Below, piece after piece: positions 3,749 through 19,452 of a stretch of DNA of 64,000 bases. The position numbers were made by a program, and so were the translations under genes. Positions within the stretch are counted from its first letter, which is position 1. Each line of letters opens with the position of its first letter. The notes below the pieces were generated by a model. That model ran no database searches and had not been told where the DNA came from. It was given only the letters and a program-made list of their open reading frames with translations. Location: NCBI RefSeq assembly GCF_004522105.1, contig NZ_SPUJ01000003.1, forward strand, positions 186,001 to 250,000. The letters are read 5' to 3'. The DNA is from Nocardioides sp. 1609 (lineage in GTDB: Bacteria > Actinomycetota > Actinomycetes > Propionibacteriales > Nocardioidaceae).

Positions 3749-3795
3749 CCACTACATCTGGGTAGTTACAACGGCGTGACTCCCGTATATGGTGG
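3749..3795 (+). promoter_or_regulatory. Tandem candidate NrdR boxes in the nrdAB promoter
   Basis: Two 16-bp elements, at 3749-3764 (core CTACATCTGG) and 3780-3795 (core CCGTATATGG), each match the NrdR core CwAtATaTwG at 7 of 10 positions as I recall it. Their cores are exactly 31 bp apart, three helical turns, which is the spacing typical of paired NrdR boxes. They sit immediately upstream of the cobalamin riboswitch. NrdR is the ATP/dATP-sensing repressor of ribonucleotide reductase operons. The assignment is inferred from spacing and context. Confidence 0.55.
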
Positions 3796-3796
3796 T

Positions 3797-4009
3797 GCAC
3801 GCAGCTGGTTCGGCTCCTCATCCAGGGGAGTCGTCGCAAGAGGGAATCCGGTGAGACTCCGGAACTGCCCCGCAGCGGTAAGTGGGAACGACCTCCGTCA
3901 CAAGCACTGGGTCCGGCGTACGTGCCGGGCCTGGGAAGCGACGGACAGTAGGAACGCAGCACCTGCCCACGAGTCCGAAGACCTGCCAGTGCCCACCGCG
4001 ATCGGTGGG
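3797..4009 (+). promoter_or_regulatory. Cobalamin (B12) riboswitch upstream of nrdAB
   Basis: The conserved aptamer core (3839-3882, containing GGAATCCGGTGAGACTCCGG and CTGCCCCGCAGCGGTAAG) and the 3' element GAGTCCGAAGACCTGCC (3971-3987) are both present. A 7-bp hairpin follows at once (3992-4009, CCCACCG/CGGTGGG, loop CGAT) as the probable expression platform. About 130 nt of leader separate it from the nrdA start. The known logic, as in the Streptomyces nrdABS operon, is that B12 shuts off the B12-independent class I reductase while a B12-dependent class II enzyme supplies dNTPs. That second enzyme is not in this window. Confidence 0.93.
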
Positions 4010-4140
4010 GTCCGCGACCTCGAGGGAGGGTCAGGGGATCGAACGCGCACGGCGGGCCCGACCCGTCGACCGCGCCCGCCGTCTCCTGCTCGCCTCGCCC
4101 CCGGACGCTTCACCGCACGAGTCCACGAGGGGTGGAACCG

Positions 4141-6747
4141 ATGAGCAGCACCATCACGGTCGTCAAGCGCGACGGCAGCCGCGCGCCGTACGACGGGTAC
4201 GAGATCGCCCGGTCGATCCAGGAGGCCGCCGCCGGCCTCGACGACGAGGTCGCCCGGGCGACGCAGCTGCGCTCCGAGCTGGAGATCACCCTCTTCGACC
4301 AGATCACCAGCGAGCAGCTCGACGAGGCCGTCGTCCAGGTCGCCCTCCAGAACGTCAAGGACGACCCGGCCTACGACACCATCGCCTCCCGGCTGCTGGT
4401 GAAGAGCCTCTACAAGTCCATCTTCGGCGAGGGCGTGACGCGCGACGAGGTGCAGGCCTTCCACGCCGAGGCGTTCGTGGCGTTCGTCGAGCGCGGTGTC
4501 GAGCTCGGCCTGCTCGACCCGCGGCTGGGCACCCACTTCGACCTGCAGCGCCTCGGCGCCGCGCTCGACCCCGGTCGAGACGACCTGCTGCGCTACATCG
4601 GCGTGCAGACCATGCGCACCCGCTACATGATCTCCGCACCCGACGGCCGGCCGATGGAGATGCCCCAGTTCTTCTGGATGCGGGTCGCGATGGGCCTCTC
4701 GCTCAACGAGACCGAGCAGGACGGACCGGGCGCCAACGCCGCCGCCGAGCGCTTCTACGACAAGATGTCGCGCCTGGAGTACCTCGCGGCCGGCTCGACC
4801 CTGGTCAATGCCGGCACGTCCTACGCCCAGCTCTCCAACTGCTTCGTGATGCAGATGGAGGACGAGATCGAGCACATCGCCAAGTCCGTGCGCGACGTCA
4901 TGTGGCTGACCAAGGGCACCGGCGGGATCGGCATGTCCGTCACCAAGCTGCGCGCCGAGGGCTCGGCGATCAGGTCCAACAACACCAGCTCGACCGGGCC
5001 GATCCCGTTCATGCACACCATCGACTCGACGCTGCGCGCGGTCAGCCGCGGCGGCAAGAAGTTCGGCGCGCTCTGCTTCTACATGGAGAACTGGCACCTC
5101 GACTTCCCGGCGTTCCTGGACCTGCGCCAGAACTCCGGTGACCCCTACCGTCGGACCCGCACCGCCAACACCGCCGTGTGGATCAGCGACGACTTCATGA
5201 AGCGCGTCGAGGCCGACCAGCCGTGGTACCTCTTCGACCCGGCCGACGTCCCGGACCTCGTCGAGCTCACCGGAGCGGCGTTCTCGCGGCGCTACGCCGA
5301 GTACGCCGCCCGTGCCGAGGCCGGAGAGCTGCGGCACAAGAAGATCGGCGCGCGCGAGCAGATGCGCGCCATCCTCACCTCGCTGCAGTCGACCTCGCAC
5401 CCGTGGCTGACGTGGAAGGACACGATCAACACCCGCGCGCTCAACCACAACACCGGGACGATCCACCTCTCCAACCTGTGCACCGAGATCTGCCTGCCGC
5501 AGGACGTCGACAACGTCTCGGTGTGCAACCTCGCCTCGATCAACCTCGCGCGCCACGTCACCGGACGCCGCCGCAGTGCCGGGGGAGACGGGGCGAGGAT
5601 CGACTGGGACCGGCTCGCGGAGTCGGCCCGGCTCGCGGTGCGCCAGCTCGACAACCTCATCGACATCACGATCTCGTCGGTGCCGGAGTCCGAGCGGAGC
5701 AACGAGCTCAACCGGGCGCTCGGCCTCGGCGTCATGGGGTTCACCGACGTCGTCGAGCGGTTCGGGTACTCCTACGAGTCCGAGGAGGCCTACGAGCTGA
5801 TCGACCGGCTGATGGAGTTCATCAGCTGGCACGCGATCGACGCCTCCGCAGACCTCGCCCGCGAGCGCGGCTCCTACGCGAACTTCGAGGGCTCGCGCTG
5901 GAGCCAGGGCCTGGTGCCGGTCGACTCCCTCGACCTGCTCGAGGCCGACCGCGGCGTGCCTGTCGAGGTCGACCGCACGACCCGGCTCGACTGGGCCGCC
6001 CTGCGCACCAAGGTCGCCGGCGGCATCCGCAACTCGACGTTGCTGGCGATCGCGCCGACCGCCTCGATCGGCCTCGTCGCCGGGACGACGCCCGGGCTCG
6101 ACCCGCAGTTCAGCCAGATCTTCAGCCGCGCCACCAGCTCGGGCAAGTTCCTCGAGGTCAACCGCAACCTCGTCGAGGACCTCCAGGCGCTCGGGCTGTG
6201 GGAGCGGGTGCGCGAGGACCTGCTGCGCCACCAGGGCGACCTGTCCCAGGTGGCCGAGCTGCACCCCGTCCCGGCCGAGCTGGTCGAGATCTACCAGACG
6301 TCGTTCCAGCTCTCGGGCCGCGCCTACCTCGAGGTCGCGGCGCGGGCGCAGAAGTGGATCGACCAGGCGATCAGCCGCAACATCTACCTGGCCGACCGCA
6401 ACGTCGCCAACATGGTCGACCTCTACTCCGCCGCCTGGCGGATGGGCGTCAAGACGACCTACTACCTGCACATGATGCCGCGCCACACCGCCGAGCAGAG
6501 CACGGTGAAGGTCAACAAGGCCGAGGCGATCGCGACCGGCGGCAGCGGTGGGGGCGGTGCCCCCCGCCGCGGGTTCGGCGCGGCCGCGCCGGCCGGACGG
6601 GGGTTCGGGGCGGTGGCGGCGCCGGTCGTCGAGGCGGCGGCGGCGGAGCCCGTCGTGCCGGACGACGTCCAGGAGCTCGAGCAGGTCGACGGGGCCGAGT
6701 GCCCCATCGACCCGATGGAGCGTCTGCAGTGCGAGTCGTGCCAGTGA
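4141..6747 (+). CDS. nrdA: Class I ribonucleoside-diphosphate reductase, alpha (R1) subunit
   Basis: Catalytic subunit that reduces ribonucleoside diphosphates to deoxy forms in the cytoplasm, with NrdB as radical source. The ATG at 4141 follows GAGGGG; an in-frame GTG at 4132 lies inside that ribosome site and is less likely. Residues 1-95 form an ATP-cone (KRDGSRAPY), the dATP/ATP activity switch. The active-site cysteines are visible in LSNCFV (about 236), NLCTEICLPQ (about 445) and VCNLASINL (about 461). A Gly/Ala-rich flexible linker leads to the C-terminal CESC pair (about 864-867) that shuttles electrons from thioredoxin-like donors. Length 868 aa. The stop overlaps the nrdB start (GTGA). 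Confidence 0.95.
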   Translation: MSSTITVVKRDGSRAPYDGYEIARSIQEAAAGLDDEVARATQLRSELEITLFDQITSEQLDEAVVQVALQNVKDDPAYDTIASRLLVKSLYKSIFGEGVTRDEVQAFHAEAFVAFVERGVELGLLDPRLGTHFDLQRLGAALDPGRDDLLRYIGVQTMRTRYMISAPDGRPMEMPQFFWMRVAMGLSLNETEQDGPGANAAAERFYDKMSRLEYLAAGSTLVNAGTSYAQLSNCFVMQMEDEIEHIAKSVRDVMWLTKGTGGIGMSVTKLRAEGSAIRSNNTSSTGPIPFMHTIDSTLRAVSRGGKKFGALCFYMENWHLDFPAFLDLRQNSGDPYRRTRTANTAVWISDDFMKRVEADQPWYLFDPADVPDLVELTGAAFSRRYAEYAARAEAGELRHKKIGAREQMRAILTSLQSTSHPWLTWKDTINTRALNHNTGTIHLSNLCTEICLPQDVDNVSVCNLASINLARHVTGRRRSAGGDGARIDWDRLAESARLAVRQLDNLIDITISSVPESERSNELNRALGLGVMGFTDVVERFGYSYESEEAYELIDRLMEFISWHAIDASADLARERGSYANFEGSRWSQGLVPVDSLDLLEADRGVPVEVDRTTRLDWAALRTKVAGGIRNSTLLAIAPTASIGLVAGTTPGLDPQFSQIFSRATSSGKFLEVNRNLVEDLQALGLWERVREDLLRHQGDLSQVAELHPVPAELVEIYQTSFQLSGRAYLEVAARAQKWIDQAISRNIYLADRNVANMVDLYSAAWRMGVKTTYYLHMMPRHTAEQSTVKVNKAEAIATGGSGGGGAPRRGFGAAAPAGRGFGAVAAPVVEAAAAEPVVPDDVQELEQVDGAECPIDPMERLQCESCQ

Positions 6748-7748
6748 GCGCCGGCGACGGGACCAGGCGGGGGATCCTCGGCACCGGCATCGAGCAGGGC
6801 CTGCTCCTCAAGCCGGTCACCTACCCGTGGGCGATGGAGCTCTACGACCAGGCGGTCGCGAACACCTGGTTCCCGAACGAGGTGCAGCTGGGGGAGGACC
6901 TCGGTGACTTCGAGCGGATGAGCGACGACGAGCGCCGCGCGCTGACCTTCCTGATGAGCTACTTCAACCCCAACGAGCTGCTCGTCAACAAGGCCCTGGC
7001 CTTCGGCGTCTACCCCTACGTCAACGCCGCGGAGTGCCACCTCTACCTCGCCAAGCAGATGTGGGAGGAGGCCAACCACTGCATGAGCTTCGAGTACGTG
7101 CTCGAGACGTTCCCGATCGACCGGGAGGCGGCGTACGCCTCGCACGTGACGGTGCCGTCGATGGCGGCGAAGGAGGAGTTCGAGATCCGCTACATCAAGC
7201 GGATGACCGAGCAGACCCTCGACATCACCACCACCGAGGGCAAGCAGGACTTCGTCCGCAACCTGATCGCCTACAACGTGATCCTCGAGGGCATCTGGTT
7301 CTACTCGGGCTTCATGGTGGCGCTGAGCTTCCGGCAGCGGAACCTGCTGCGGAACTTCGGCTCGCTGATCGACTGGATCGTGCGCGACGAGTCGCTGCAC
7401 CTGAAGTTCGGGATCAACCTCGTGCTCACGGTGCTCGAGGAGAACCCGGACGTCGCCACCGAGGAGTTCGCGGCCGAGATCAAGCAGATGGTGCTGGACG
7501 CCGTGGAGATGGAGGAGGCCTACAACCGCGACCTCCTGCCGAACGGGATCCTCGGGCTGAACGCCGACTACATCAACACCTACGTGCGCTACCTGGCCGA
7601 CCGGCGCCTCGACGAGCTGGGCTTCGGCGCGCACTACGGGGTGGCGAACCCGGCGAAGTGGATGGCGACGGCGAACGACACGCTCCAGCTGGTCAACTTC
7701 TTCGAGTCGATCAACACCTCCTACGAGGTCAACGCCCGGCAGGGCTGA
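6744..7748 (+). CDS. nrdB: Class I ribonucleotide reductase R2 subunit, class Ic-like (Phe at the radical-Tyr site)
   Basis: Radical-generating subunit partner of NrdA. The GTG at 6744 overlaps the nrdA stop (GTGA), so translation is coupled; in-frame GTGs at 6729 and 6738 are alternatives. The dimetal ligands can be read directly: E78 (NPNELL), E109 and H112 (EEANH), E182 (ILEGIW), E216 and H219 (RDESLH). The position four after H112, Tyr122 in E. coli R2, is Phe116, and the first ligand is Glu instead of Asp. Every ligand is offset by exactly 11 from those of Chlamydia trachomatis class Ic R2 (89, 120, 123, 127, 193, 227, 230). A Mn/Fe cofactor without a Tyr radical is therefore predicted. 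C-terminal tail ...SYEVNARQG. Confidence 0.93.
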   Translation: MSAGDGTRRGILGTGIEQGLLLKPVTYPWAMELYDQAVANTWFPNEVQLGEDLGDFERMSDDERRALTFLMSYFNPNELLVNKALAFGVYPYVNAAECHLYLAKQMWEEANHCMSFEYVLETFPIDREAAYASHVTVPSMAAKEEFEIRYIKRMTEQTLDITTTEGKQDFVRNLIAYNVILEGIWFYSGFMVALSFRQRNLLRNFGSLIDWIVRDESLHLKFGINLVLTVLEENPDVATEEFAAEIKQMVLDAVEMEEAYNRDLLPNGILGLNADYINTYVRYLADRRLDELGFGAHYGVANPAKWMATANDTLQLVNFFESINTSYEVNARQG

Positions 7749-8203: not shown

Positions 8204-9097
8204 TCACCGGGACGCGGTCGTCCTCCCGCCGAGGTCGCCGGGGTCCTCGAAGCTGCCGGCGACGCCGTAGGAGGCCTTGCGGGAGGCCCGGCGCAGGGTG
8301 TTCAGGACGGCGGGGCCGAGCACCAGGATCGCGAGGGTGTTGGTGATCGCGCGGCCGGTGTCCCAGCCGGCGGTGGAGGTCAGCAGGGTGAAGACCGCGA
8401 ACCGGTGCAGGTTCTCCAGCACCGGCGCTCCGGCGACGTAGGAGATCGCGCCCTCGTGGTAGGCGACCTCCGCGCCGGTGACGAACGGCCAGAACCACAG
8501 GTTCATGACGAAGCCGAAGGCGTAGGACACCACGATGCCGTAGCCGACGAGCATGGCGATCTCGGCCCTGCCCGTGACCCGCTTCGGTAGCAGCCCGGCG
8601 CCCATCCCGATCCACGCCGAGGCCAGCATCTGGAACGGCAGCCAGGGCCCGACGCCGGCGGTGAGCAGTGCGGAGGCGAACAACGACGTGCACCCCAGCA
8701 CGAAGCCGAACCCGGCCCCGAAGACCCGGCCCGACAGCACGAGCAGGAAGAAGACCGTCTCGATGCCCGCGGTGCCCGCCCCGAGGGGGCGCAGCGCGGC
8801 GTTGATCGCGGACAGGACGCCGAGCATCGCGAGCGCCTTGGAGTCCATCCCGCCCTCGGAGAGCTCGGCCAGCACGATCACGATCAGCACCGGCAGGATC
8901 GCGAGGAAGACGAACGGCGCGTCGACACCGTGCTGCAGCGAGGAGGGGTCGACGCGCACCAGCAGCGGCCAGCAGAACATCAGGAGGCCGCCGAGCGAGG
9001 CCAGCGCCAGCACGAGGGCCGAGCGCCTGCCGATCCGGACGGCGCCGGCGTCGTCCCAGGCCCTGACCGGTGCGGAGACGGGCCGGACGTCGCTCAC
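8204..9097 (-). CDS. ECF transporter substrate-binding (S) component, putative B12 specificity
   Basis: Integral membrane protein of 297 aa with about six hydrophobic segments (residues 28-48, 62-80, 88-105, 112-150, 160-215, 250-265), including the small-residue-rich helices typical of ECF S proteins (ALMLGVLSAINAALRPLGAG-like region near 88-110). It is the last gene of a six-gene operon; its GTG start overlaps the ATPase stop (GTGA). Substrate cannot be read from the protein itself. B12 is inferred because the operon opens with a cobalamin riboswitch and encodes transcobalamin-like surface proteins. It is longer than minimal S components such as BioY or ThiT. A cobalt or corrinoid precursor is the main alternative. 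Confidence 0.8.
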   Translation of the reverse strand: MSDVRPVSAPVRAWDDAGAVRIGRRSALVLALASLGGLLMFCWPLLVRVDPSSLQHGVDAPFVFLAILPVLIVIVLAELSEGGMDSKALAMLGVLSAINAALRPLGAGTAGIETVFFLLVLSGRVFGAGFGFVLGCTSLFASALLTAGVGPWLPFQMLASAWIGMGAGLLPKRVTGRAEIAMLVGYGIVVSYAFGFVMNLWFWPFVTGAEVAYHEGAISYVAGAPVLENLHRFAVFTLLTSTAGWDTGRAITNTLAILVLGPAVLNTLRRASRKASYGVAGSFEDPGDLGGRTTASR

Positions 9098-10701
9098 GGG
9101 GTCCTCCCCAGCGCGGCGCCGACCTCGTCGACGGTGAGCCAGCCCGCCCCGAGGATCTTAGCGACCTGGGTGGCGAAGGCGGGGGAGCCGCCGAGGACGT
9201 CGCGGGTCGGGCCCTCCGAGACGATCTCGCCCTCGGCCATCACGACGGCGCGGTCGGCGACCTGGGCGACGAACTCGACGTCGTGGGACGCCACCACGAT
9301 GGCCCGGCCCGCCGCGGCGAGCCGGCGGACGACGGCCACGAACGTCGCCTTCGCGGTGTAGTCGAGCCCCCGGGTCGGCTCGTCGAGCAGCATCACCTGC
9401 GGTGCCGCCGTCAGCTGGAGGGCGAGCACCAGCGCGAGCCGCTGTCCCTCGGAGAGGTCGCGTGGGTGCCGGGCGTGGTCGACACCCGGCGCGATCGACT
9501 CCAGCAGGGTCGCGCAGGTGCCCGGCTCGGCGCCTGCCTCGACGTCGCCGGTCGCGCACTCGGCGCCGACCGTCTCGAGGTAGAGGAGGTCGGCCGCCGA
9601 CTGCGGGACCAGCCCGACGAGCTCGCGCGCCCGGGTGGCGGAGAGCTCCTTCGGGTCCTTCCCCGCGATCGCGACCCGGCCGCCCTGGCGCGGGCCGGAG
9701 CCCTGGACCGCCCACAGCAGCGAGGACTTGCCGGAGCCGTTGCGGCCCATCAGCGCGGTCACGGTGCCGGGGCGCAGGACGAGGTCGACGCCGCGCACCG
9801 CGACCTTCGGTCCGTAGCGGACGACGACGCCGGAGGCCTGGAGGAGTGGGGGCGCCGTGCTCGCGGGCGGGTCGACCGGAGCGCCGGCGACCTCGAGCCG
9901 CTCCCGGACGGCGCCGGCCCGGCGTCGTGCGTCACGGACCGACAGGGGCAACGGGTCCCAGCCGACCTCGCGGCCGAGCCGGACGATCGGCGGCGCGATC
10001 GGCGTCCGGGCGAGCAGGGCGGCGGGCTCGTCGACCTCGACGCGGCCGTCGGCGTCCACGAACAGCATCCGGTCGGCGAACGGGACCACGCGCTCCATCC
10101 GGTGCTCGGCGAGCACCACGGTGGTGCCGAGGTCCTGCACCAGCCGGGCGATGGTTGCGAGCACGTCCTCGGCGGCGGTGGGGTCGAGGGCCGACGTCGG
10201 CTCGTCGAGCACCAGCACCTGCGGGTGGGTGGTCAGCACCGCGCCGATCGCGACGCGCTGCTGCTGGCCCCCGGAGAGGGTGCGCAGGGCGCGTCGGCGC
10301 AGCTCGGCGATCCCGAGCAGGTCGAGGGTCTCCTCGACGCGGCGGCGCATCACGTCGGCGCGGACGCCGAGCTGCTCCATCCCGTAGGCGAGCTCGTCCT
10401 CGACGGTGTCGGTGACGAACCCGGCGAGCGGGTCCTGACCCACGACGCCGACCAGGTGCGCGAACTCGCGGGGCGGTCGCTCGTGCGTGCTGACGCCGGC
10501 GACGGTGACCCTGCCCTGCAGGTGGCCGCCGGTGAAGTGCGGCACCAGTCCGTTGAGGGTGCCGAGCAGGGTCGACTTCCCGGCGCCGGTGCGGCCGGTG
10601 AGCAGCACCAGCTCGCCCTCCTCGAGCGTCAGGTCGACCTCGTGCAGGGTGGGTCGCTCCTGGCCGTGGTACCAGAACGAGACGGCGTCGAGGGTGATCA
10701 T
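9094..10701 (-). CDS. ECF transporter fused double ATPase (EcfA-EcfA')
   Basis: Two ABC nucleotide-binding domains in one 535-aa chain power import. Domain 1 has Walker A GRTGAGKST (36-44), signature LSGGQQQRV and Walker B VLVLDEPTSALD. Domain 2, after a 70-residue linker, has Walker A GRNGSGKSS, a degenerate signature LSEGQRLAL and Walker B VMLLDEPTRGLD with a D-loop and a switch His (ASHD). One canonical and one weaker site is usual for fused ECF ATPases. The ATG at 10701 overlaps the stop of the T component (ATGA). No transmembrane segment. Partner of the flanking T and S subunits. Confidence 0.92.
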   Translation of the reverse strand: MITLDAVSFWYHGQERPTLHEVDLTLEEGELVLLTGRTGAGKSTLLGTLNGLVPHFTGGHLQGRVTVAGVSTHERPPREFAHLVGVVGQDPLAGFVTDTVEDELAYGMEQLGVRADVMRRRVEETLDLLGIAELRRRALRTLSGGQQQRVAIGAVLTTHPQVLVLDEPTSALDPTAAEDVLATIARLVQDLGTTVVLAEHRMERVVPFADRMLFVDADGRVEVDEPAALLARTPIAPPIVRLGREVGWDPLPLSVRDARRRAGAVRERLEVAGAPVDPPASTAPPLLQASGVVVRYGPKVAVRGVDLVLRPGTVTALMGRNGSGKSSLLWAVQGSGPRQGGRVAIAGKDPKELSATRARELVGLVPQSAADLLYLETVGAECATGDVEAGAEPGTCATLLESIAPGVDHARHPRDLSEGQRLALVLALQLTAAPQVMLLDEPTRGLDYTAKATFVAVVRRLAAAGRAIVVASHDVEFVAQVADRAVVMAEGEIVSEGPTRDVLGGSPAFATQVAKILGAGWLTVDEVGAALGRTP

Positions 10702-11885
10702 GCGCGGCTCCCGACGGGCTGGTCGTCCCGGTCGTGGTCGTGGGTCGGTAGCCGGTCGTCGGGGACGTCGTCCAGCTCGTCGTGGGGCGGCACCGGCGGC
10801 GGCGACAGGAACGCGGGCACCAGCCCGATCCAGACCGCGGCGAGCGGCGCCCAGGCCAGCAGCGGCCACGACAGCTCGAGGAGCGAGGGGTTGAGGGCGG
10901 CCGGGTCGGCGCCGCCCGAGGTGAGCACCAGGGCCGCGACCAGGACGCCGGAGCCGGCGGTGACGACCTCGGCGAGGTGCCAGCGGTCGGGCCGGTACCG
11001 GGTGCGCTGCACCCGTCGTCCGGCCAGGGCGAAGCCGGTCATCCCGATCACGAGTCCGCCGGCGAGCATCGGCCCGCCGAGGTACCCGGGGGTGGTGGCG
11101 TCGAGGGTGCCGTAGATGCCGACGCAGAGCCCGACCAGGCCGGTGACCATGAAGAACCCGGTGGTCGCGCGCTGCCGTGGGGTGGCGTCGCCGGCGCGGC
11201 CGTAGCCCCGGGAGTCCATCGACGCGGCGAGCCGCAGCGAGCGGTCGAGGGCGTCCTCGAGCACCGGGATGACGACCGAGCGCAGCGCCCGGCGACCCGT
11301 CGACGTGCTGCCGCGCAGCCGGCGGGCGCGGTTGACGCGGAGCACCGACTCGGCGAGCTGCGGGAACACCGACAGCGCGACGACGACGGCCGTGCCGACC
11401 TCGTAGAGCGCCGACGGCATCGACTTGAGCAGCCGCTTGGGGTTGGCCAGCGCGTTCGCGGCGCCGAGGCAGATCACCATCGTCGCCAGGCGCAGACCGT
11501 CGTAGAGGCCGCCGAGGAGCGACTCGGCCGACACGTCCCCGAACAACCGGATCCCGGCGGCCCAGGCGGGCAGCGGGACCTCGGGGAGCCGCAGCACGAT
11601 CGACGGTCCCTCGGCGCCGCCGAAGACGACGCGGAACAGCACCCGCGCCACGACGATGAACGCGCCGAGGTAGACGTAGAGCCGGAACGACATCGCCCAC
11701 GGCTCGCTGCCGCGCCGGACGACCACGACGTGACCGACGACGGCGAGCATGCTGGCGAGCAGCCACGGGTTCGTCGTCCTGCTGGCAGCGGTGGCGATGC
11801 CGAGCGCCCACACCCACCACGCGACCGGGTGCAGGTCGCGCGGCAGGAAGTACGTCGAGACGACCCGCACGGCGCGGTCACGCAC
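10698..11885 (-). CDS. ECF transporter transmembrane coupling (T) component
   Basis: Polytopic membrane protein of 395 aa that couples the ATPases to the S component. The conserved N-terminal TYFLPRDLHPVAW, the AANALANPKRLLKSMP segment and the two Ala-Arg-Gly coupling signatures (NRARRLRG and SMDSRGYGR) are all visible. About six to seven membrane segments are spread over residues 20-305, followed by a polar, Asp/His-rich C-tail. The GTG at 11885 lies 8 bases inside the end of the upstream gene. Its position between the surface proteins and the ATPase fits one transport complex. Confidence 0.9.
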   Translation of the reverse strand: MRDRAVRVVSTYFLPRDLHPVAWWVWALGIATAASRTTNPWLLASMLAVVGHVVVVRRGSEPWAMSFRLYVYLGAFIVVARVLFRVVFGGAEGPSIVLRLPEVPLPAWAAGIRLFGDVSAESLLGGLYDGLRLATMVICLGAANALANPKRLLKSMPSALYEVGTAVVVALSVFPQLAESVLRVNRARRLRGSTSTGRRALRSVVIPVLEDALDRSLRLAASMDSRGYGRAGDATPRQRATTGFFMVTGLVGLCVGIYGTLDATTPGYLGGPMLAGGLVIGMTGFALAGRRVQRTRYRPDRWHLAEVVTAGSGVLVAALVLTSGGADPAALNPSLLELSWPLLAWAPLAAVWIGLVPAFLSPPPVPPHDELDDVPDDRLPTHDHDRDDQPVGSRA

Positions 11886-12876
11886 CGTCGCGGGCCCGCC
11901 GTCGTCGTCGTGACGTCAGCACGGCCGACGCCGCGAGCAGCAGCATCGCGCCGGCCGCGACCCACGGCGCCAGGTCGCTGGCGCCGACCTGGTCCCCGAC
12001 CGTGTCGCGGACGTCGGGCGCGGCCTCGCCGCCGGTGAACTCCACGTTGTCGGCCGGGTCGTCGGCGGTGCCGGCCGCGCCGGCGGTCGGGGCCGGGTCG
12101 CGGGGCCTCGGCGCGGGGAGGTCGTCGCTGCCGGCCGAGCCGCCCGGCGCGACCGGCGGGTCCTGGCCCGCGCCGGTGCCGGGGGTGTCGGCGCCGGTGG
12201 GTGCGGGGCCGGTGGGGGCCGGGGCGTCCGGTCGTGCCTGCTGCGCGAGCGGGTCCTCGCCGGTCGGCGCCGCCTCCCGCGACTCCGTGCACGGCCCGCC
12301 CTCGGTGCCCGGCCGGACCGCGGCGACCCGCGGCCGGGGGTTGTCACCGCTCCCGGCGTTGAGCGAGAACGACCAGCCCTCGAAGCCGCCCGCCACGAAG
12401 TCGCGGTTCTTCACGCCCCACTGGCTGTAGGTCCAGGCGCAGTTGTTGCCGGCGTGCCAGTAGGACCAGTAGCCCGACGCGGGCGGGGTGTCGAGGCACC
12501 CCTCCCGGTAGTCCTCGTCGCCCTCGATGGCGAGGGTCTCGACGGCCGAGGGCCGGTTCTCGACCCGGCAGACGAACGCCAGGCCCCACCGCTGGACGCC
12601 CTCGACCTGGATGCCGCTGCCCTGGAGCGCGTCGAGGCCGGTGCCGCGGGTGCTGGTGGGGTTGCACCGCACGATCGGGTCGCCGCCGAGCTGCTGGAAG
12701 TCGACGACGACGGTCACGCCGGTGTCGTCGGGGCAGAAGCCCGGGGTGCCCTTGCTGGTGTCGACGGCCGCGACGGCCCCGACGGCCGTGGCGGGGGCCG
12801 CGGCGGGCACCCCGGCGACCAGCACGCCCGCGAGCGCGAGCAGCAGGGCACCCGCGGCGGAGGCGAGTCTCCTCAC
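11878..12876 (-). CDS. Secreted C-terminally anchored protein with DUF4430-like (SCO2322-type) domain
   Basis: 332 aa: a signal peptide (1-33), a compact domain (about 45-195), a long Pro/Thr/Gly-rich stalk (195-290) and one C-terminal membrane helix (about 297-318) followed by an Arg-rich stop-transfer. The domain has a VVVDFQQLGG strand, conserved cysteines (CPDD, RCNP, FVCRV, GCLD, NNCAW) and an aromatic patch YWSYWHAG...GGFEGWSF. The same domain recurs at the N-terminus of the 14594-17905 product, so the two genes are relatives. I recall this as the SCO2322 family and compare it with DUF4430, the beta-domain of transcobalamins; both assignments need a profile search. The GTGA start overlaps the previous gene. 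Confidence 0.8.
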   Translation of the reverse strand: MRRLASAAGALLLALAGVLVAGVPAAAPATAVGAVAAVDTSKGTPGFCPDDTGVTVVVDFQQLGGDPIVRCNPTSTRGTGLDALQGSGIQVEGVQRWGLAFVCRVENRPSAVETLAIEGDEDYREGCLDTPPASGYWSYWHAGNNCAWTYSQWGVKNRDFVAGGFEGWSFSLNAGSGDNPRPRVAAVRPGTEGGPCTESREAAPTGEDPLAQQARPDAPAPTGPAPTGADTPGTGAGQDPPVAPGGSAGSDDLPAPRPRDPAPTAGAAGTADDPADNVEFTGGEAAPDVRDTVGDQVGASDLAPWVAAGAMLLLAASAVLTSRRRRRARDGA

Positions 12877-14597
12877 CGGCGGACCACGCGGAAGGTCGCC
12901 GCGCCCGAGCGGACGGCGTACGCGCCGGTGGCCCGCACCCGGGCCGTGCCGAACGGCCTGGTGACGCGGACGGTGCGGACCAGGACGCCCGCGGCGGTGG
13001 CGCGACCGCGCAGGACCCTGCCGCGGACCCGGAGGGTGACGGCCTCGCCGGCGGCCAGGCCGCGCACGGTGATCCTCTGCTGCGTGCCGGGCCGCAGCCT
13101 CGCCGCCCTCAGACGGACCGCGAGCCGCTTCGCGGCGAGCACCTGGATGGTGCCGGCGCCGGTGCGCTCGGAGGTCGACCCGGTGACCACCACCGCGCGG
13201 GTCCCGGGCGGGGTGGCGGCGGGGACGACGACGGCGGCGGCGACGGCGCCGGTCGCGGACGCCGTCCCGGTGGCGGCGCTGCGCCCCCCGACGGTGACCC
13301 GGTAGGCCTCGCCTCCGGCGAGCCCGGTGGCGCGGACCGCGATCGACCGGCCACGCAGGACGTACCCGGTCGGTGCCGTGACGGCGAACCGGGCGGCGCG
13401 CGGGGCGGTCAGGTCCCAGAAGCCGACCTGCGCCAGGCCGAGCGAGGCCTGCGCGGTCGCGCGGACCCAGGTGTCGGGCGAGCCGATGCCGTCGGTGCGG
13501 GCCGCGTCGTGCTCGGCCGGGGTGTAGGCGATCGCTCCCACGTCGCCGGCGAGCGCGGTGCCGGCGTCCGCGGCGGTGGCCTGCGCGGACGTGAGGTAGG
13601 CCTCGCCGTCCGCGACCGCGCCCACCGGTGCGCCGGCGTCCGCGAGGGCCTGGACGACCAGGCCGGTGCTGTTGGTGTTGGGGGCCTCGGTGCCGACGCC
13701 GCCGCCCCAGCCGCCCCCGGCGTCCTGCTGGTCGAGGAGCCAGTCGACGGTCCCGGCGATCTCGTCGTCGAGGCCGCCGACGCCCGAGCGCTGGGCGGCC
13801 AGCATCGCGGAGAGACCGAGACCGGTGGCGTCGCGGTCCGGCGCGGCCGACGGGCTCTGGTCACAGCTGCGCGGACCGTCGTAGTAGATCCGGAAGAACC
13901 CCGCACCGCAGCGCTGCCACAGCAGCTTGTCGACGACGGGGCCGGCGAGACGGCCCGCGCGGGCGAGCCCGATGACGGCCAGCGTCTGCCCGAAGCTGTT
14001 GGCGTTGTTGTAGGTGACGTCGGGCCCGAAGTCGACGACGCGACCGACGTCGGTCACCGAGATGCCGCCGTCGGCGAACTCGCCGCCGGCTGCGAACCGG
14101 CCGCCCGGGGCGACGTCGGCCGCCGTGACCACGGTGCTCAGGGTGCGGGCCACGAGGTCCTGGCCCCCGAAGTCGCGGGTGTCGCGTCCCCCGACCTGCG
14201 CGGCGACGAGGGTCTTGGCGGTCGCGCCCGCCACGTGCTCCTCGAGCCCGTGCTCGGCGTCCCACTCGACGGCGCTGTAGAAGTTCGCCGCCAGCCCCTC
14301 GTCGTCGAGGGCGGTCAGGATCGGCTCGGCGAGCTCGCCGTCGCCGGAGGCGTGCATGGCGTAGATCGCGTCGATCGACAGCCCGTAGTCGGGCCGGGGA
14401 CCGAACGGTCCCGGGAGCAGGCCGTCGACGAGCTGCGAGGCGAGCCACGCCGAGCTGGACGACGCCGCCGGCAGGTCGCGGCCGGCGGTGGGTGCCGGGG
14501 TGGGAGCGGCGGTCGCCGGTGACGGTCCGGTCACGGCGAGGGCGAGGGCCAGCGCGGCGATCGGGACGGCGGCGGGGCCGGTGGTGCGGAGCTTCAC
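12873..14597 (-). CDS. Secreted prenyltransferase/squalene-oxidase-type alpha-barrel repeat protein (transcobalamin-like)
   Basis: 574 aa with a signal peptide (1-31). Residues about 45-395 form alpha/alpha-barrel repeats of the prenyltransferase/squalene-oxidase type, with recurrent NSFGQTLAVIGLAR, DATGLGLSAMLAAQ and NTNSTGLVVQALADAG helices and a GGGWGGG turn. Two cysteines near 250-262 (QRCGAGFF, SCDQSP) may pair. Residues about 400-574 are two Ig-like beta domains. No terpene-cyclase DxDD motif appears, so enzymatic activity is unlikely; this fold binds cobalamin in intrinsic factor and transcobalamin. No membrane anchor is seen. The GTG start overlaps the upstream stop (GTGA). Confidence 0.82.
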   Translation of the reverse strand: MKLRTTGPAAVPIAALALALAVTGPSPATAAPTPAPTAGRDLPAASSSSAWLASQLVDGLLPGPFGPRPDYGLSIDAIYAMHASGDGELAEPILTALDDEGLAANFYSAVEWDAEHGLEEHVAGATAKTLVAAQVGGRDTRDFGGQDLVARTLSTVVTAADVAPGGRFAAGGEFADGGISVTDVGRVVDFGPDVTYNNANSFGQTLAVIGLARAGRLAGPVVDKLLWQRCGAGFFRIYYDGPRSCDQSPSAAPDRDATGLGLSAMLAAQRSGVGGLDDEIAGTVDWLLDQQDAGGGWGGGVGTEAPNTNSTGLVVQALADAGAPVGAVADGEAYLTSAQATAADAGTALAGDVGAIAYTPAEHDAARTDGIGSPDTWVRATAQASLGLAQVGFWDLTAPRAARFAVTAPTGYVLRGRSIAVRATGLAGGEAYRVTVGGRSAATGTASATGAVAAAVVVPAATPPGTRAVVVTGSTSERTGAGTIQVLAAKRLAVRLRAARLRPGTQQRITVRGLAAGEAVTLRVRGRVLRGRATAAGVLVRTVRVTRPFGTARVRATGAYAVRSGAATFRVVRR

Positions 14598-17500
14598 GGG
14601 GTGCTTCTTTCTTCAGGGGCGAGGAGGCGAGGGAGCGAGAGCAGGAGGACGACGGCGGCGAGCGCGAGGGCAGCCCAGGCCGGCCAGTCGAGGCCGGGCT
14701 CCACCGGGCCGGCGGCGGCGTCGGACCGGACGGGGTCGGACGTGTCGGCGTCCGGCTCGGCGGCGAGCGGCAGCAGGACCTGCGCCTCCAGGGGCGACGC
14801 GGACGACGTCAGCCACGACGTCCCGGCCACGGCGGGGGCGGCGGCCGCGGAGGTGGAGAGGTCGCTGACGGTCACCGGGGTCGCCCCGAGGGTCGCGGGC
14901 AGGCCGCCGTCCGTGCGTTGGGTGCCGACCAGGACGTCGCGGGTCCGGGTGCTGTCGAGGCCGACCGCCTGGCGCGCGATGGCCACCGCCGCCAGCGCGG
15001 ACACGCGGTCGTCGTCGAGGGTGAGTCCGCCGTCGACGGTGACCGCGGACCGGAGTGCCGCGCCGGCGCCGGCCAGGGCGGCCGTGCGCTCGCCCGGCCA
15101 GGCCGCCGGCGCCCGGTCGGCCGGTGCGTCGGCCGGGCCGCTGTCGGGCGGACGGACCGTCGCGTCGAGGGCCTGGACGACGAGCGCGGTGGCGACGGGG
15201 TCGCCGGTCGCGCACCCCGCACCGCCCGCGACGGTCGTGGGGAAGAGGCCGTCGTCGCACGGGGCGCCGACCAGGGTGGCGACCGCCCCCGCGGCGGCCT
15301 CGGGCCGGCCCGCGGCGGTCAGGGCGAGGACCGCCCACGCCGACCGGGTGGTGGACGCGACGTCGTCGTCCGCGCCGCCCGCGGCGAACCCGGTGGGGTC
15401 GGCCCGGCCGGCGAGCCGGTCGGCGAGGGCGGACGCGCGGGCGGCGTCCGCGGGACGGTCCGAGGCGAGGGCGACGAGGACCAGCCTCGCCAGCGGCTCG
15501 ACGTAGGTGGCGGCACGCTCGTAGGGCGCTGCGCCGACGTACGCCGCGACCGAGCGCCGGTCGAGCAGGAACCGGGTGGCGCGGCGCGCGGCACCGGGTT
15601 GCTCACCGCTCTGGCGCAGGGCCAGGACGACCTCGGCGGTGAGGTCGTAGTCGACGTACGCCGTCGCGTCGACGGTGACCTCGACGTGGTCGCCGTCGAC
15701 CAGGCTCGCCGCGAGGTGCGCGCCGAGCCGGCCGCTCGGCGTGGCCGCCGCCGGCGCGACGGGCGGGGACCCGGGGACGGTGAGGGCCGGCTCGCCACCG
15801 GTGCCGGAACCGGTCGCGGAACCGGTGCTCGACGGCGGCGCGGGGGAGCCGGGCGCCGTCGTCCCGGTCGCCGGCGGGGTCGCGGGTGTCGGCTCGTCGC
15901 CACGGTCGGGCGCCTCGGGCTCACCACGCGGCGCCCGTTCCCCGAGGGTGACGAACGAGACCGGGGCGAGGGCGAAGATCGCCTGGGTCGTCGCACGACG
16001 CCACTGGTCGCGGCCGGTGATGCCCGTCGCGCGCGCCGCCGCCAGGGAGCCCGCGTCGTAGGCGATCGCCCCGCGCTCGGTGGCCAGCGGCCCGGTGCGC
16101 GGGGCCGGGACGACGCTCAGCGACCGTACGAACGCCTGGGCGCGCCGGAACGCGGGCCGGCGCCCGGCGGCGGCGAGGGTCTGTGCGACCAGGCCGGTGC
16201 TGTTGGTGTTGGAGCCCTCGGTGCTGGTGCCGCCGCCGAACGAGCCGTCGCGGCGCTGGACGCGGACCAGCCACGCCACGCCGCGGTCGATCTCGTCGTC
16301 GAGCCCGGCGACGCCGTTCGCGCGGGCGGTCATCAGGGCCTGGAGGCCCATGGCGGTGCCGTCGCCGTCGGCCGCGTCGGCGTCCTGGTCGCAGGTGCGG
16401 TCGCTGCGGTCGAACATCCGGAAGTAGCCGGCGGCGCACTGCTGCCGGACCAGGTAGTCGACGGCGACCGTGGGGACGCCACCGGAGCGTGCCAGGGCGA
16501 TGACCGCGAGGGCCTGGCTGAAGGTGTTGGTGTTGTCGATGCCGACCCCGCTGTCGCGCACCCGGCCGACCTGGGGTCCCCGACGAGCCACCAGCGACAG
16601 GGTCTCGCGGCGCAGGTCGTAGCGGCCGGCGGTGAGCGAGCCGTCGGCGCGCATGACCCGGCCGAAGGACCGCGGGTCGCGGCCCGCCACGACGGCGGCC
16701 AGGAGCACCTTGGCGGTCGGCCCGGCCCGGCGCACGTCGGCGTCGCCGAACAGCCGGACCCCGAGGTAGTCGCCGGCGTCGCGGTCGAGCGCGTCGAGGA
16801 TCGTCCGCGTCGCCTCCCGTCCGGTGCCCGCGGCGTACAACGCCCAGAGGGTGTCGACGGTCAGGCCCCAGTCGGTCGATTCGGCCGACGTCGGGATCGG
16901 TGCCGGCATCGTGCCGTCGACGAGCTCACCGACCAGCCAGCCGCTCACCTGCCGCGCGGCCGGGTCGACCGGGAGGTCCTGCTGGCCACCGGGGGCCGGG
17001 TCCGGCGCCGGGTCCGGACCGGGGTCGGGGCCGGCGCCGACGACCTCGAGGGTGAGCACGTCACGCACCTCGGTGCCGTCGGCCGAGCGCGCGGTGACCT
17101 CGTAGCGGTGGGTGCCGGCGGTGGTGGGCCGGACGGTGCGCGCGCCGCCCGGCCGGGCGAGGTCGCCGGTCCACGCCCCGCTCGCGGTCAGCCGGTCGGC
17201 GTTGCGCGACGTCCACCTCAGCGTGGTGCTCCCCCCCAGCACCAGGGTCGCGTCGAGCCGGTCGGAGGTCAGCGCGACCTGGGGCGCGTCCGGGTCGACG
17301 GCCGGGTTGACGGGCAGGTGCCGCGGCGGCGGGTTGGACTCGGCCGTCGCGTCCAGCGCGAAGGACCAGCCCTCGAAGCCGCCGGGGACGACGTCGCGGT
17401 TCAGGACGCCGTGCTCGGAGTAGCGCCAGTCCTGACCGCCGCCGTCGGCGTACCAGTAGGACCAGTACGCCGCCGCGGGCGGCGTTTCGGTGCAGCGCTC

Positions 17501-17905
17501 CCGGTAGCGCGGGTTCGACCGCACCGGCAGCGTCTCGGACAGGGCCGGGCGGCCGTTGATCCGGCACACGAACGCATCGCCCCACCGGTCGACGCCGGTC
17601 GGCGTCAAGCCGGCGTCGACGAGCGCCTGGTGCCCGGTCCGCGGGGTGACCGTGCCGTCGGCGGCCACCGTGCCGGGGGAGCAGCGCACGATCGTCGGCG
17701 CCGCCGTGCCGCCGTTGCCGTCGAGCTGCTGGAAGTCGACGACCACCGTGACCCCGCTGCGCGCGTCGTCGCCCGTGCAGGCGCCGGCGTAGGACGGCGA
17801 CGCGGCGGCTGCGGCCACGACGCCGGCGACCAGCGCGAGGGTGGTGGCCACGAGCGCGAGCGCTGCGGCGCCGGCCGCGACCCGGCGGTGCGTCCCGATC
17901 GGCAT
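14594..17905 (-). CDS. Large surface protein: DUF4430-like + Ig + two alpha-barrel repeat domains + membrane anchor
   Basis: First gene of the ECF operon, 1103 aa. In order: signal peptide (1-40), DUF4430-like domain (43-205, VVVDFQQLDG, AYWSYWYADG, GGFEGWSF), an Ig-like domain (210-288), a Pro/Asp linker, a prenyltransferase/squalene-oxidase-type alpha repeat domain (305-660, NTFSQALAVIALARSGG, NTNSTGLVAQTLAAAG), a Pro/Ser/Thr stalk (660-735), a second, more divergent helical-repeat domain (735-1050) and a C-terminal membrane helix (about 1075-1092). This is the alpha-barrel plus beta-domain pairing of transcobalamin inside one chain, anchored at the membrane. The ATG at 17905 has its GGGGAG ribosome site inside a hairpin. 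Likely the primary corrinoid receptor; binding is inferred. Confidence 0.82.
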   Translation of the reverse strand: MPIGTHRRVAAGAAALALVATTLALVAGVVAAAAASPSYAGACTGDDARSGVTVVVDFQQLDGNGGTAAPTIVRCSPGTVAADGTVTPRTGHQALVDAGLTPTGVDRWGDAFVCRINGRPALSETLPVRSNPRYRERCTETPPAAAYWSYWYADGGGQDWRYSEHGVLNRDVVPGGFEGWSFALDATAESNPPPRHLPVNPAVDPDAPQVALTSDRLDATLVLGGSTTLRWTSRNADRLTASGAWTGDLARPGGARTVRPTTAGTHRYEVTARSADGTEVRDVLTLEVVGAGPDPGPDPAPDPAPGGQQDLPVDPAARQVSGWLVGELVDGTMPAPIPTSAESTDWGLTVDTLWALYAAGTGREATRTILDALDRDAGDYLGVRLFGDADVRRAGPTAKVLLAAVVAGRDPRSFGRVMRADGSLTAGRYDLRRETLSLVARRGPQVGRVRDSGVGIDNTNTFSQALAVIALARSGGVPTVAVDYLVRQQCAAGYFRMFDRSDRTCDQDADAADGDGTAMGLQALMTARANGVAGLDDEIDRGVAWLVRVQRRDGSFGGGTSTEGSNTNSTGLVAQTLAAAGRRPAFRRAQAFVRSLSVVPAPRTGPLATERGAIAYDAGSLAAARATGITGRDQWRRATTQAIFALAPVSFVTLGERAPRGEPEAPDRGDEPTPATPPATGTTAPGSPAPPSSTGSATGSGTGGEPALTVPGSPPVAPAAATPSGRLGAHLAASLVDGDHVEVTVDATAYVDYDLTAEVVLALRQSGEQPGAARRATRFLLDRRSVAAYVGAAPYERAATYVEPLARLVLVALASDRPADAARASALADRLAGRADPTGFAAGGADDDVASTTRSAWAVLALTAAGRPEAAAGAVATLVGAPCDDGLFPTTVAGGAGCATGDPVATALVVQALDATVRPPDSGPADAPADRAPAAWPGERTAALAGAGAALRSAVTVDGGLTLDDDRVSALAAVAIARQAVGLDSTRTRDVLVGTQRTDGGLPATLGATPVTVSDLSTSAAAAPAVAGTSWLTSSASPLEAQVLLPLAAEPDADTSDPVRSDAAAGPVEPGLDWPAWAALALAAVVLLLSLPRLLAPEERSTP

Positions 17906-17915
17906 TGCTCTGCAT

Positions 17916-17934
17916 CTCCCCGTTGGGCGGGGAG
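17916..17934 (-). promoter_or_regulatory. Hairpin sequestering the ribosome site of the ECF/B12 operon
   Basis: On the minus strand CTCCCC pairs with GGGGAG (6 bp, 7-nt loop). GGGGAG is the only good ribosome-binding sequence for the ATG at 17905, 10 bases downstream. A second hairpin (17939-17961, 8-bp stem CGGGTGGG/CCCACCCG) lies between it and the riboswitch. Together they look like a translation-level expression platform. Confidence 0.6.
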
Positions 17935-17961
17935 GCGCCGGGTGGGCGCTGACCCCACCCG

Positions 17962-18125
17962 TAGTCCACGACGGTGTGTTGTGTGTATCTGCTCCACGGG
18001 CCAGTCCGGCTCACCGCGGCGCCGGGGCGCCGCGATCTACGGTTGCGGGTCAGCGCCGGGATCGAACCGGCTTTGAGCACCGCGGAGGTGTGTTCGGTTG
18101 TGGTGCCCGGGCCAGCCGGGCACCG
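17962..18125 (-). promoter_or_regulatory. Variant cobalamin riboswitch upstream of the ECF/surface-protein operon
   Basis: Read on the minus strand, a hairpin GGTGCCCG...CGGGCACC (about 18105-18124) is followed by a core with AAAGCCGG-TTCGAT-CCCGGC, then GCTGACCCGCAACCGT (about 18038-18053), a GC-rich hairpin, and the 3' element GAGCCGGACTGGCC (about 18000-18013). These match, in order, the P4 arm, the CTGxCCCGCAAC core and the GAGCCxGAxxACC element of cobalamin riboswitches, with differences from the nrdA copy (GACCCGCAAC instead of GCCCCGCAGC). The boundaries are approximate. A covariance-model search would settle it. Confidence 0.7.
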
Positions 18126-18301
18126 CAGTGTGCGCCCTGCCGACGCGCCCCTGCAACTCGTCGCTCCACGTCCCCGGCGCACGTCGTCCGAGGTGGGCGC
18201 CGCGCCGCTGCCCGGTCCACGGGCGCCGGGGCCGACCATCCTGCGGGAGGTGGTGCGACCGCGGGGCCGGCCGTTGACTGGGCTCACGAGGAGGTGCCGA
18301 G

Positions 18302-18361
18302 ATGCCAGCCGGGATGTCAGCCGAGACGCCAGCCGAGACGCCGCGACGCGTGGCCGGGTGA
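18302..18361 (+). CDS. 19-residue leader ORF overlapping the carboxylate-amine ligase start
   Basis: An ATG at 18302 sits 5 bases after an excellent ribosome site (GAGGAGGTG, 18288-18296) and encodes MPAGMSAETPAETPRRVAG. Its TGA overlaps the GTG at 18358 (GTGA). The downstream gene has no good ribosome site of its own, so this small ORF probably delivers ribosomes to it by translational coupling. It contains a short repeat (SAETPAETP). No function for the peptide itself is evident. An unrecognised frameshift joining the two frames is the alternative. Confidence 0.5.
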   Translation: MPAGMSAETPAETPRRVAG

Positions 18362-19452
18362 CGCGTGGCGTGCGCAAGGTCGGGGTCGAGGAGGAGCTCT
18401 GGGTCGTCGACCCCGCGTCGCGGCGGGCGGTGCCACGCGCGCCCCAGGTGCTGCGCCTGGCCGACGGCGACGTCGAGCGCGAGCTCTTCCGCCACCAGGT
18501 CGAGATCCACAGCGCCCCGTCCACCGACCTCGACGACGTCGGGCGCGACCTGCGGGCGGCCCGGTCCGGCGCCGGGCAGGCGGCCGAGCGGCTGGACCTG
18601 GCGCTCGTGGCCTCCGCCGTCCCGGTGCTCTCCTCCGACGTCGCCGTCGTCAGCGACGACGACCGGTACCGCGACATGGTCGCGCGCTACGGCGACGTCG
18701 CCCGCTCCGCCGGTACGTGCGGCATGCACGTCCACGTCGACATCGCCTCGGACGACGAGGGCGTGGCCGTCATCGACCGGATCGCGCCGTGGCTGCCGGT
18801 CGTGCTCGCGGTGAGCACGAACTCGCCCTTCGCCGACGGTGGCGACACCTCCTACGCGTCGTGGCGCAGCGAGCAGTGGTCCCGCTGGCCCAGCGCCGGC
18901 CCGACCGACCCCTTCGGCGACGTCGCCGGGTACCGCGCCGCCGCGCAGGCGCTGGTGCGCTCGGGTGCCGCACGCGACGACGCGATGCTCTACTTCGACG
19001 CCCGGCTCGCCGCGGACTACCCGACCGTGGAGGTCCGCGTCGCCGACGTCGCCACCGACCTCGACGACACCCTGCTGGTGGCGGCGCTCGTCCGCGCGCT
19101 GGTGCACACCGCCGCCGGCGGTGCGCTGCCCGCCCTGCCGTGGCGCTCCGAGCTGGTGCGGGCCGCGCGCTGGCGGGCCGCCCGGTACGGCCTCGCCGGC
19201 GACCTGCTGCACCCGGCCCGACCGGACGCCGAGCCCGTCGGCGCCGCCGACGTCCTGACCGACGTCGTGGACGCCGTCCGCGACGCGCTCGACTCAGCCG
19301 GCGACACCGCGCGCGTCGAGGACGGCGTGGCCGGGGTGCTCCGGGGCACCGGCGCCACCCGCCAGCGTGCCGCCCTCGAGCGCACCGGCGACCTCGACGG
19401 CGTCGTCGACGACCTCGTCGCCCGCACCCGCGACTCCTGGAAGGAGCCATGA
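18358..19452 (+). CDS. YbdK-type carboxylate-amine ligase (glutamate-cysteine ligase-like, GCS2 family)
   Basis: 364 aa of the ATP-grasp-like GCS2 fold. Visible motifs are VGVEEELWVVD at the N-terminus, the ELFRHQVEIHS substrate/Mg segment, GMHVHVDI (about 122-129) and the VEVRVADV strand. YbdK proteins have weak gamma-glutamylcysteine ligase activity. Actinobacteria usually make mycothiol and not glutathione, so the real product here could be another gamma-glutamyl amide, for example in ergothioneine-like chemistry. The GTG at 18358 overlaps the leader ORF stop; a GTG at 18370 is possible. The stop overlaps the HAD gene start (ATGATG). Confidence 0.85.
   Translation: MTRGVRKVGVEEELWVVDPASRRAVPRAPQVLRLADGDVERELFRHQVEIHSAPSTDLDDVGRDLRAARSGAGQAAERLDLALVASAVPVLSSDVAVVSDDDRYRDMVARYGDVARSAGTCGMHVHVDIASDDEGVAVIDRIAPWLPVVLAVSTNSPFADGGDTSYASWRSEQWSRWPSAGPTDPFGDVAGYRAAAQALVRSGAARDDAMLYFDARLAADYPTVEVRVADVATDLDDTLLVAALVRALVHTAAGGALPALPWRSELVRAARWRAARYGLAGDLLHPARPDAEPVGAADVLTDVVDAVRDALDSAGDTARVEDGVAGVLRGTGATRQRAALERTGDLDGVVDDLVARTRDSWKEP

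Follow-up and report, generated by a model that had tools for sequence, protein, structure and literature searches.

A predicted cell-surface B12 capture and ECF import operon behind a divergent cobalamin riboswitch in Nocardioides sp. 1609

The animal B12 carriers transcobalamin, intrinsic factor and haptocorrin pair an alpha/alpha toroid with an SLBB beta domain. A bacterial use of the same pair was proposed in a 2007 paper on SLBB domains, which we take to be that of Burroughs et al. The excerpted text of this paper (PMC1796856) predicts that SLBB-toroid proteins encoded next to CbiO and CbiQ scavenge B12. It assigns the clade to low-GC Gram-positives, planctomycetes and, more rarely, euryarchaea; actinobacteria are absent from that list, and the terms riboswitch, S component and CbiM are never used. 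A Mycobacterium is among the organisms shown in Figure 2, without the clade being stated in the legend (excerpts of PMC1796856). In acI freshwater actinobacteria, which lack B12 synthesis, an energy-coupling factor (ECF) module behind cobalamin and adenosylcobalamin (AdoCbl) riboswitches was proposed in 2017 as a cobalamin transporter, and the excerpts of that report (PMC5301498) mention no SLBB or toroid proteins. ECF-CbrT of Lactobacillus delbrueckii, whose uptake of cobalamin and cobinamide is established by experiment, with complementation of an E. coli strain that lacks a B12 importer of its own, uses a shared (group II) ECF module, and its excerpted description (PMC5997447) mentions no extracellular capture proteins. 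Here we describe a six-gene operon of Nocardioides sp. 1609 that very probably encodes a single B12 (corrinoid) scavenging system, in which surface capture proteins feed an ECF importer under riboswitch control. It lies in a 64,000-nt stretch of contig NZ_SPUJ01000003.1 (the window), to which all positions refer; C10 and C14 denote other contigs of the same genome.

The genes for BIG, TOR2, SLBB2 and the ECF components T, A and S form six open reading frames (ORFs) on the minus strand, running from 17905 down to 8204 without internal stops (Table 1). The first-pass annotation had described six minus-strand genes with overlaps of 4-10 bases; every junction does overlap, and the upper size came out lower, since the measured overlaps are 4 bases (S/A), 4 (A/T), 8 (T/SLBB2), 4 (SLBB2/TOR2) and 4 (TOR2/BIG). 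The parts of an ECF transporter that it had named were recovered: a CbiQ-type T component, two ATP-binding cassette (ABC) ATPase domains and a polytopic membrane protein as S component, the last weakly, just below the PF07155 cut-off. Hydrophobic segments were found at residues 8-37 and 1071-1098 of BIG, at residues 1-38 and 301-322 of SLBB2, and at the N-terminus only of TOR2. Both SLBB2 and BIG carry the motifs VVVDFQQL and GGFEGWSF, as had been read. BIG had also been taken for a membrane-anchored protein that combines both domain types; this stood, with the addition of an immunoglobulin-like (Ig-like) domain between the SLBB domain and the first toroid and of a second toroid-like region.

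In the proposed mechanism, membrane-anchored BIG and SLBB2 and secreted TOR2 would grip B12 outside the cell via their predicted transcobalamin-like SLBB and toroid domains, which may clamp it between them in the manner of transcobalamin. The S component would take B12 from the capture proteins, the ECF importer would bring it in, and B12 would shut off importer expression through the divergent cobalamin riboswitch. This agrees with the B12 surface capture system first suggested, which we consider well supported. Its basis is computed and consists of gene order and overlaps, conservation, leader homology, the predicted transcobalamin fold of SLBB2, and profile matches of B12 enzymes without two corrin markers.

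A variant cobalamin riboswitch had been suspected at 17962-18125. Rfam gave no cobalamin match in 17700-18400 even at E ≤ 10. Genome-wide, RF00174 had three matches at E ≤ 1, namely 3788-4004 (+), one on C10 (32.7 bits, above the cut-off) and 17993-18073 (-), where the score was 17.8 bits against a cut-off of 31.5. Twenty-three loci with relatives of SLBB2 were collected from named actinobacterial records and 22 of them (all except L053) were scanned with Rfam; matches above the cut-off lay directly upstream of the operon in eight (L032, L033, L035, L042, L047, L048, L049 and L050). Covariance model R1 was built from 17 relatives' elements, these eight at Rfam level and nine found by motif, with the window excluded. 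In the training alignment the core is nearly constant, and 13 of the 29 pairs of the consensus fold show at least one compensatory change. R1 found the window element at E 8.5e-9 in 64 kb and ranked it second genome-wide (E 6.4e-7), the C10 element being first (5.9e-10). Across 24 loci R1 gave 44 matches at E ≤ 1, including L037, L040 and L057 outside the training set. Model R2 was made from nine elements, mostly before orphan toroid genes, in loci of the same set and again without the window. It matched the window at E 5.1e-12 and extended over the downstream hairpin, where 8/10 aligned sequences have GTCGTGG unchanged. By homology, the window leader classifies as a true but divergent member of the cobalamin riboswitches (Rfam clan CL00101). 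A fourth genome-wide R1 match, on C14 (E 0.46), is weak, adjoins apparent iron-uptake genes and was set aside as likely chance.

In the minimum-energy fold of 17880-18098 (-), the aptamer core (18054-18037) is paired with an almost perfectly complementary downstream stretch at 17964-17948, and the likely ribosome-binding site GGGGAG (17921-17916) sits inside a 7-bp hairpin. The fold energy has a z-score of -2.35, and 3/200 shuffles were equally low. Parts of the aptamer fold and the downstream leader pairing are mutually exclusive, as a switch requires. We infer from this model which leader state would free the ribosome-binding site: cobalamin binding would stabilise the aptamer against the competing leader pairing, and the site would stay closed. 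A YbdK/glutamate-cysteine-ligase-like gene at 17974-19452 (+) presents a long ORF antisense over the riboswitch. Translation probably begins further downstream than this ORF suggests, since its GCS2 domain starts only about 400 bases in.

Of the 23 relative loci, 17 show the complete arrangement toroid(s), SLBB, SLBB2, T, A, S. In L047 and L048 the first SLBB is missing from this arrangement, L040 encodes SLBB and toroid as a single ORF, and L034, L036 and L044 are truncated on the upstream side. SLBB-toroid fusions also occur in the window (BIG) and in several homologues. Among the products compared, S is conserved most strongly, with 79-85% identity to 14 relatives, and the closest named relative of SLBB2, 82% identical, is from Nocardioides dongxiaopingii. 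An R1-type element lies upstream in 19/20 loci with complete upstream sequence (17 of these being the training set); L053 has none. Of 196 sampled genomes from the class to which the window belongs, 30 matched the SLBB2 profile, 104 (about half, 109 places) the S profile, and at least 140 R1 at E ≤ 1e-4. Co-occurrence of these families with the riboswitch across actinobacteria was one of the checks proposed. R1 lay 83-3640 bp upstream on the same strand in at least 21/30 SLBB2-profile genomes and 2.8-8.9 kb upstream on the same strand for at least 72/109 S places (at least 71/104 genomes). Among the matches listed, it was within 10 kb but in the wrong orientation or downstream at 1/109 S places.

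Related genes also occur outside the operon. Orphan toroid genes stand near it in L031 (14512-15721), L032 (5149-6393), L037 (14525-15734), L051 (14589-15802) and L052 (1812-3007, minus strand), each behind its own R1 cobalamin-type element (L031 14512, L032 5149, L037 14525, L051 14589, L052 2887). In L048 (Nocardioides zeae) an extra SLBB gene (14658-15185) directly follows S. A lone gene for a 175-residue, secreted-looking SLBB protein lies directly behind an R1-type riboswitch in L086 (5659-6186, minus strand) of G144, a 1.2 Mb genome, and by coordinates likewise in G172. The 7 kb of L086 contain five ORFs of 120 residues or more, none of them apparently a toroid or ECF gene, and the S profile had no match in G144 or G172.

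The predicted fold of the SLBB2 domain found its best match in the animal B12 carriers of blood and gut (structure prediction, Foldseek). The model shows a beta-grasp fold in which a beta-hairpin is inserted behind the helix, as in the transcobalamin-like SLBB clade (excerpts of PMC1796856). In an alignment of 46 rows G45 is invariant and G53, G58 and W62 are nearly so. The marks of the clade, two glycines (after strand 2 and in the turn before strand 3) and a hydrophobic residue of the hairpin, appear to be present; we infer which residue takes which position.

Table 1. Features of the B12 operon and its leader, in window positions
Feature	Position	Strand	Evidence or remark
Divergent cobalamin riboswitch, aptamer and downstream conserved hairpin	17944..18096	-	R2 65.5 bits; R1 44.5 bits at 17970-18094
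7-bp hairpin CTCCCCG/CGGGGAG around likely ribosome-binding site of first gene	17916..17934	-	minimum-energy fold; function inferred
BIG, 1103 residues: signal/anchor, SLBB, Ig-like, toroid, toroid-like region, C-terminal membrane segment	14594..17905	-	
SLBB (transcobalamin C-terminal-like) domain of BIG	17327..17776	-	sequence relative of SLBB2 domain; beta-rich part of BIG structure model
Ig-like beta domain of BIG	17027..17299	-	all-beta segment of structure model; type inferred from strands only
First alpha/alpha toroid of BIG	15956..16975	-	
Second toroid-like region of BIG	14681..15730	-	tblastn to relatives' toroid genes; known from sequence alone
TOR2, 574 residues, secreted toroid protein with C-terminal tail region	12873..14597	-	NF053823 SCO2321_fam 67.7 bits, cut-off 300
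SLBB2, 332 residues, membrane-anchored SLBB protein	11878..12876	-	domain modelled: 12241-12771
ECF T component, CbiQ family	10698..11885	-	PF02361 44.2 bits (cut-off 25), E 2.3e-11
ECF A component, two ABC ATPase domains in one chain	9094..10701	-	PF00005, two stretches; start ATG 10701
ECF S component	8204..9097	-	PF07155 24.2 bits, below cut-off 26.7

The genome encodes five proteins above the B12-binding cut-off and an AdoCbl-dependent NrdJ on C14 (1594 bits). CobN had no match in the genome, and CobJ/CbiH reached 32.6 bits against a cut-off of 246. These two corrin-synthesis markers, which are not a full pathway survey, would fit an importer, and de novo synthesis is not apparent. A second, diverged operon on C10 has a riboswitch (507847-507969, minus strand), toroid, SLBB, T and S (L057 1098-4970 and L082 2667-3956, both minus strand). 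Its S matches the S profile of the window family at 3.6e-112 and PF12822 at 31.1 bits against a cut-off of 30.7. The sole cobalamin riboswitch of the window at the Rfam cut-off (3788-4004 on the plus strand, 88.9 bits) lies upstream of nrdA. This class I ribonucleotide reductase alpha gene (4132-6747, plus strand) is followed by a small-subunit-like ORF (region 3788-7748) and is convergent with the B12 operon. The nrdA riboswitch and NrdJ together likely let B12 decide which reductase is used. The operon of L045 (Asanoa) likewise has a neighbour behind a separate cobalamin riboswitch, a gene with 37% identity to nrdA.

Of the described systems, the clade in the excerpts of PMC1796856 shares with this locus a secreted SLBB-toroid fusion, another SLBB protein paralogous to it, an operon with CbiO and CbiQ, and hosts usually without key B12 synthesis enzymes. 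The locus differs from that clade in the Ig-like domain and second toroid-like region of BIG and in its separate secreted toroid protein. It resembles the acI module in joining a riboswitch to ECF genes in an actinobacterium without apparent B12 synthesis and ECF-CbrT in being an ECF importer; the S profile, searched against PDB at E ≤ 10, did not retrieve CbrT. Relative to the animal carriers, whose beta domain is C-terminal, that of BIG is N-terminal, before the Ig-like domain and toroids, and SLBB2 and BIG end in membrane segments. As modelled, BIG would work like animal transcobalamin or intrinsic factor but is no member of that family, the toroid-to-SLBB order being reversed and interrupted. 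Capture at the cell surface ahead of an importer is also a property of the surface B12 lipoproteins of Bacteroides, presumably BtuG. These belong to another lineage, one with an outer membrane, and they are likened here by description only (excerpts of PMC6143338). Among the matches listed, the open-access literature included no work joining SLBB, toroid, ECF and riboswitch in actinobacteria, and the excerpts of PMC1949818, PMC4350170, PMC2667541 and PMC8123684 do not describe this system.

Several results weigh against a B12 capture and import system of this kind. Foldseek on BIG residues 44-670 put complement C3-C5 first, at low TM-score. The comparison was confined to the Foldseek matches, 379 chains for SLBB2 and 1000 for BIG, the latter filled by the toroid; the complement ranks are taken to reflect a toroid with beta domains within a long chain. 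The inter-domain geometry of BIG is unsure (predicted TM-score 0.66), and the toroid fold is common to many enzymes. Searched against PDB sequences, the toroid profile matched squalene-hopene cyclases best, not transcobalamin, in a list made up mainly of cyclases and complement/macroglobulin, and the SLBB2 profile had no match. A single S sequence had none either and the S profile only four chance-level ones, so S is not recognisably CbrT. L5-L13 kissing loops are a feature of cobalamin riboswitches, and ACCCG in L5 is complementary to CGGGT downstream; L5-L13 complementarity (60) was no better than the mean with swapped partners (59.5). Among the matches listed, 9/30 SLBB2-profile genomes (G042, G049, G118, G123, G137, G166, G210, G217 and G219) had no R1 element, and 37/109 S genes had none placed as described above. 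According to a 2009 survey, more than 90% of the prokaryotes that take up B12 have BtuFCD (excerpts of PMC2667541); the search of this genome did not cover BtuFCD, and the operon need not be its sole B12 importer.

The ligand could be another B12-related compound (cobinamide, another cobamide or a lower-ligand precursor), imported by the same parts under the same riboswitch, an alternative that overlaps our corrinoid wording and that we regard as possible though doubtful. The riboswitch indicates the pathway, not the ligand, the paralogous C10 operon would allow two ligands, and the characterised ECF-CbrT takes cobalamin and cobinamide (excerpts of PMC5997447). Conversely, the SLBB2 fold matches binders of intact cobalamin, and the genome is without the de novo markers CobN and CobJ in a search that did not cover late salvage genes. 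It is improbable that the SLBB and toroid proteins bind a surface polymer or other soluble ligand and share the operon of a B12 importer for regulation only, as might be argued from the polysaccharide binding predicted for other SLBB families (excerpts of PMC1796856) and from the toroid fold being common among glycan enzymes.

Just as improbable is an ECF part that imports cobalt or nickel for B12 synthesis, with the SLBB and toroid genes encoding unrelated surface proteins. CbiQ, the Pfam family of T, denotes cobalt transport, and cobalt importers also lie under cobalamin riboswitches (excerpts of PMC3766115). This alternative is disfavoured by the lack of apparent de novo synthesis, with no CobN match and CobJ not above its cut-off. 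S weakly matches vitamin S families of ECF transporters, and its C10 paralogue exceeds the PF12822 cut-off; CbiM is not among the Pfam matches of the window proteins or the C10 S. An 1100-residue capture protein would also be needless for a metal ion, which is an argument rather than a test. Terpene cyclases in lipid or hopanoid chemistry are hardly credible and were rejected on the loss of the DXDD of class II (squalene-hopene) cyclases and on gene context. DXDD is kept in 0/25 toroid rows; in 24 of them D-x-D is followed by a non-acidic residue, and L057 has SVDT. N-terminal signal-like segments suggest export, and B12-type riboswitches precede both the operon and the relatives' orphan toroid genes. 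As had been foreseen, toroid relatives do bear the source name 'terpene cyclase/mutase'; SLBB2 relatives are named 'ABC transporter substrate-binding protein', and relatives of these operon proteins are also called hypothetical proteins. NCBIfam places TOR2 and BIG near the 'SCO2321 family' and SLBB2 and BIG near the 'SCO2322 family', all below curated cut-offs.

The B12 capture and import system joins, for actinobacteria, the SLBB-toroid, ECF and riboswitch lines, with an architecture, S family and riboswitch subtype of its own. On a wider reading, about which we are evenly divided, it would be a cell-surface B12 relay of Actinomycetes: transcobalamin-like modules, some separate and some fused, would clamp the vitamin and pass it to an ECF S family not described so far. 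By its distribution it would then be a main B12 route of the class, and no other bacterial system would come as close in function to animal intrinsic factor and transcobalamin, which feed a receptor. The divergent leader shows that Rfam models can miss members of the B12 regulon. B12 import by B12-dependent, non-producing actinobacteria is only partly known, and this system offers a concrete, testable uptake machine for it, with an S component that about half of the genomes sampled from the class possess. It may also represent a bacterial version of the two-domain B12 clamp of animals.
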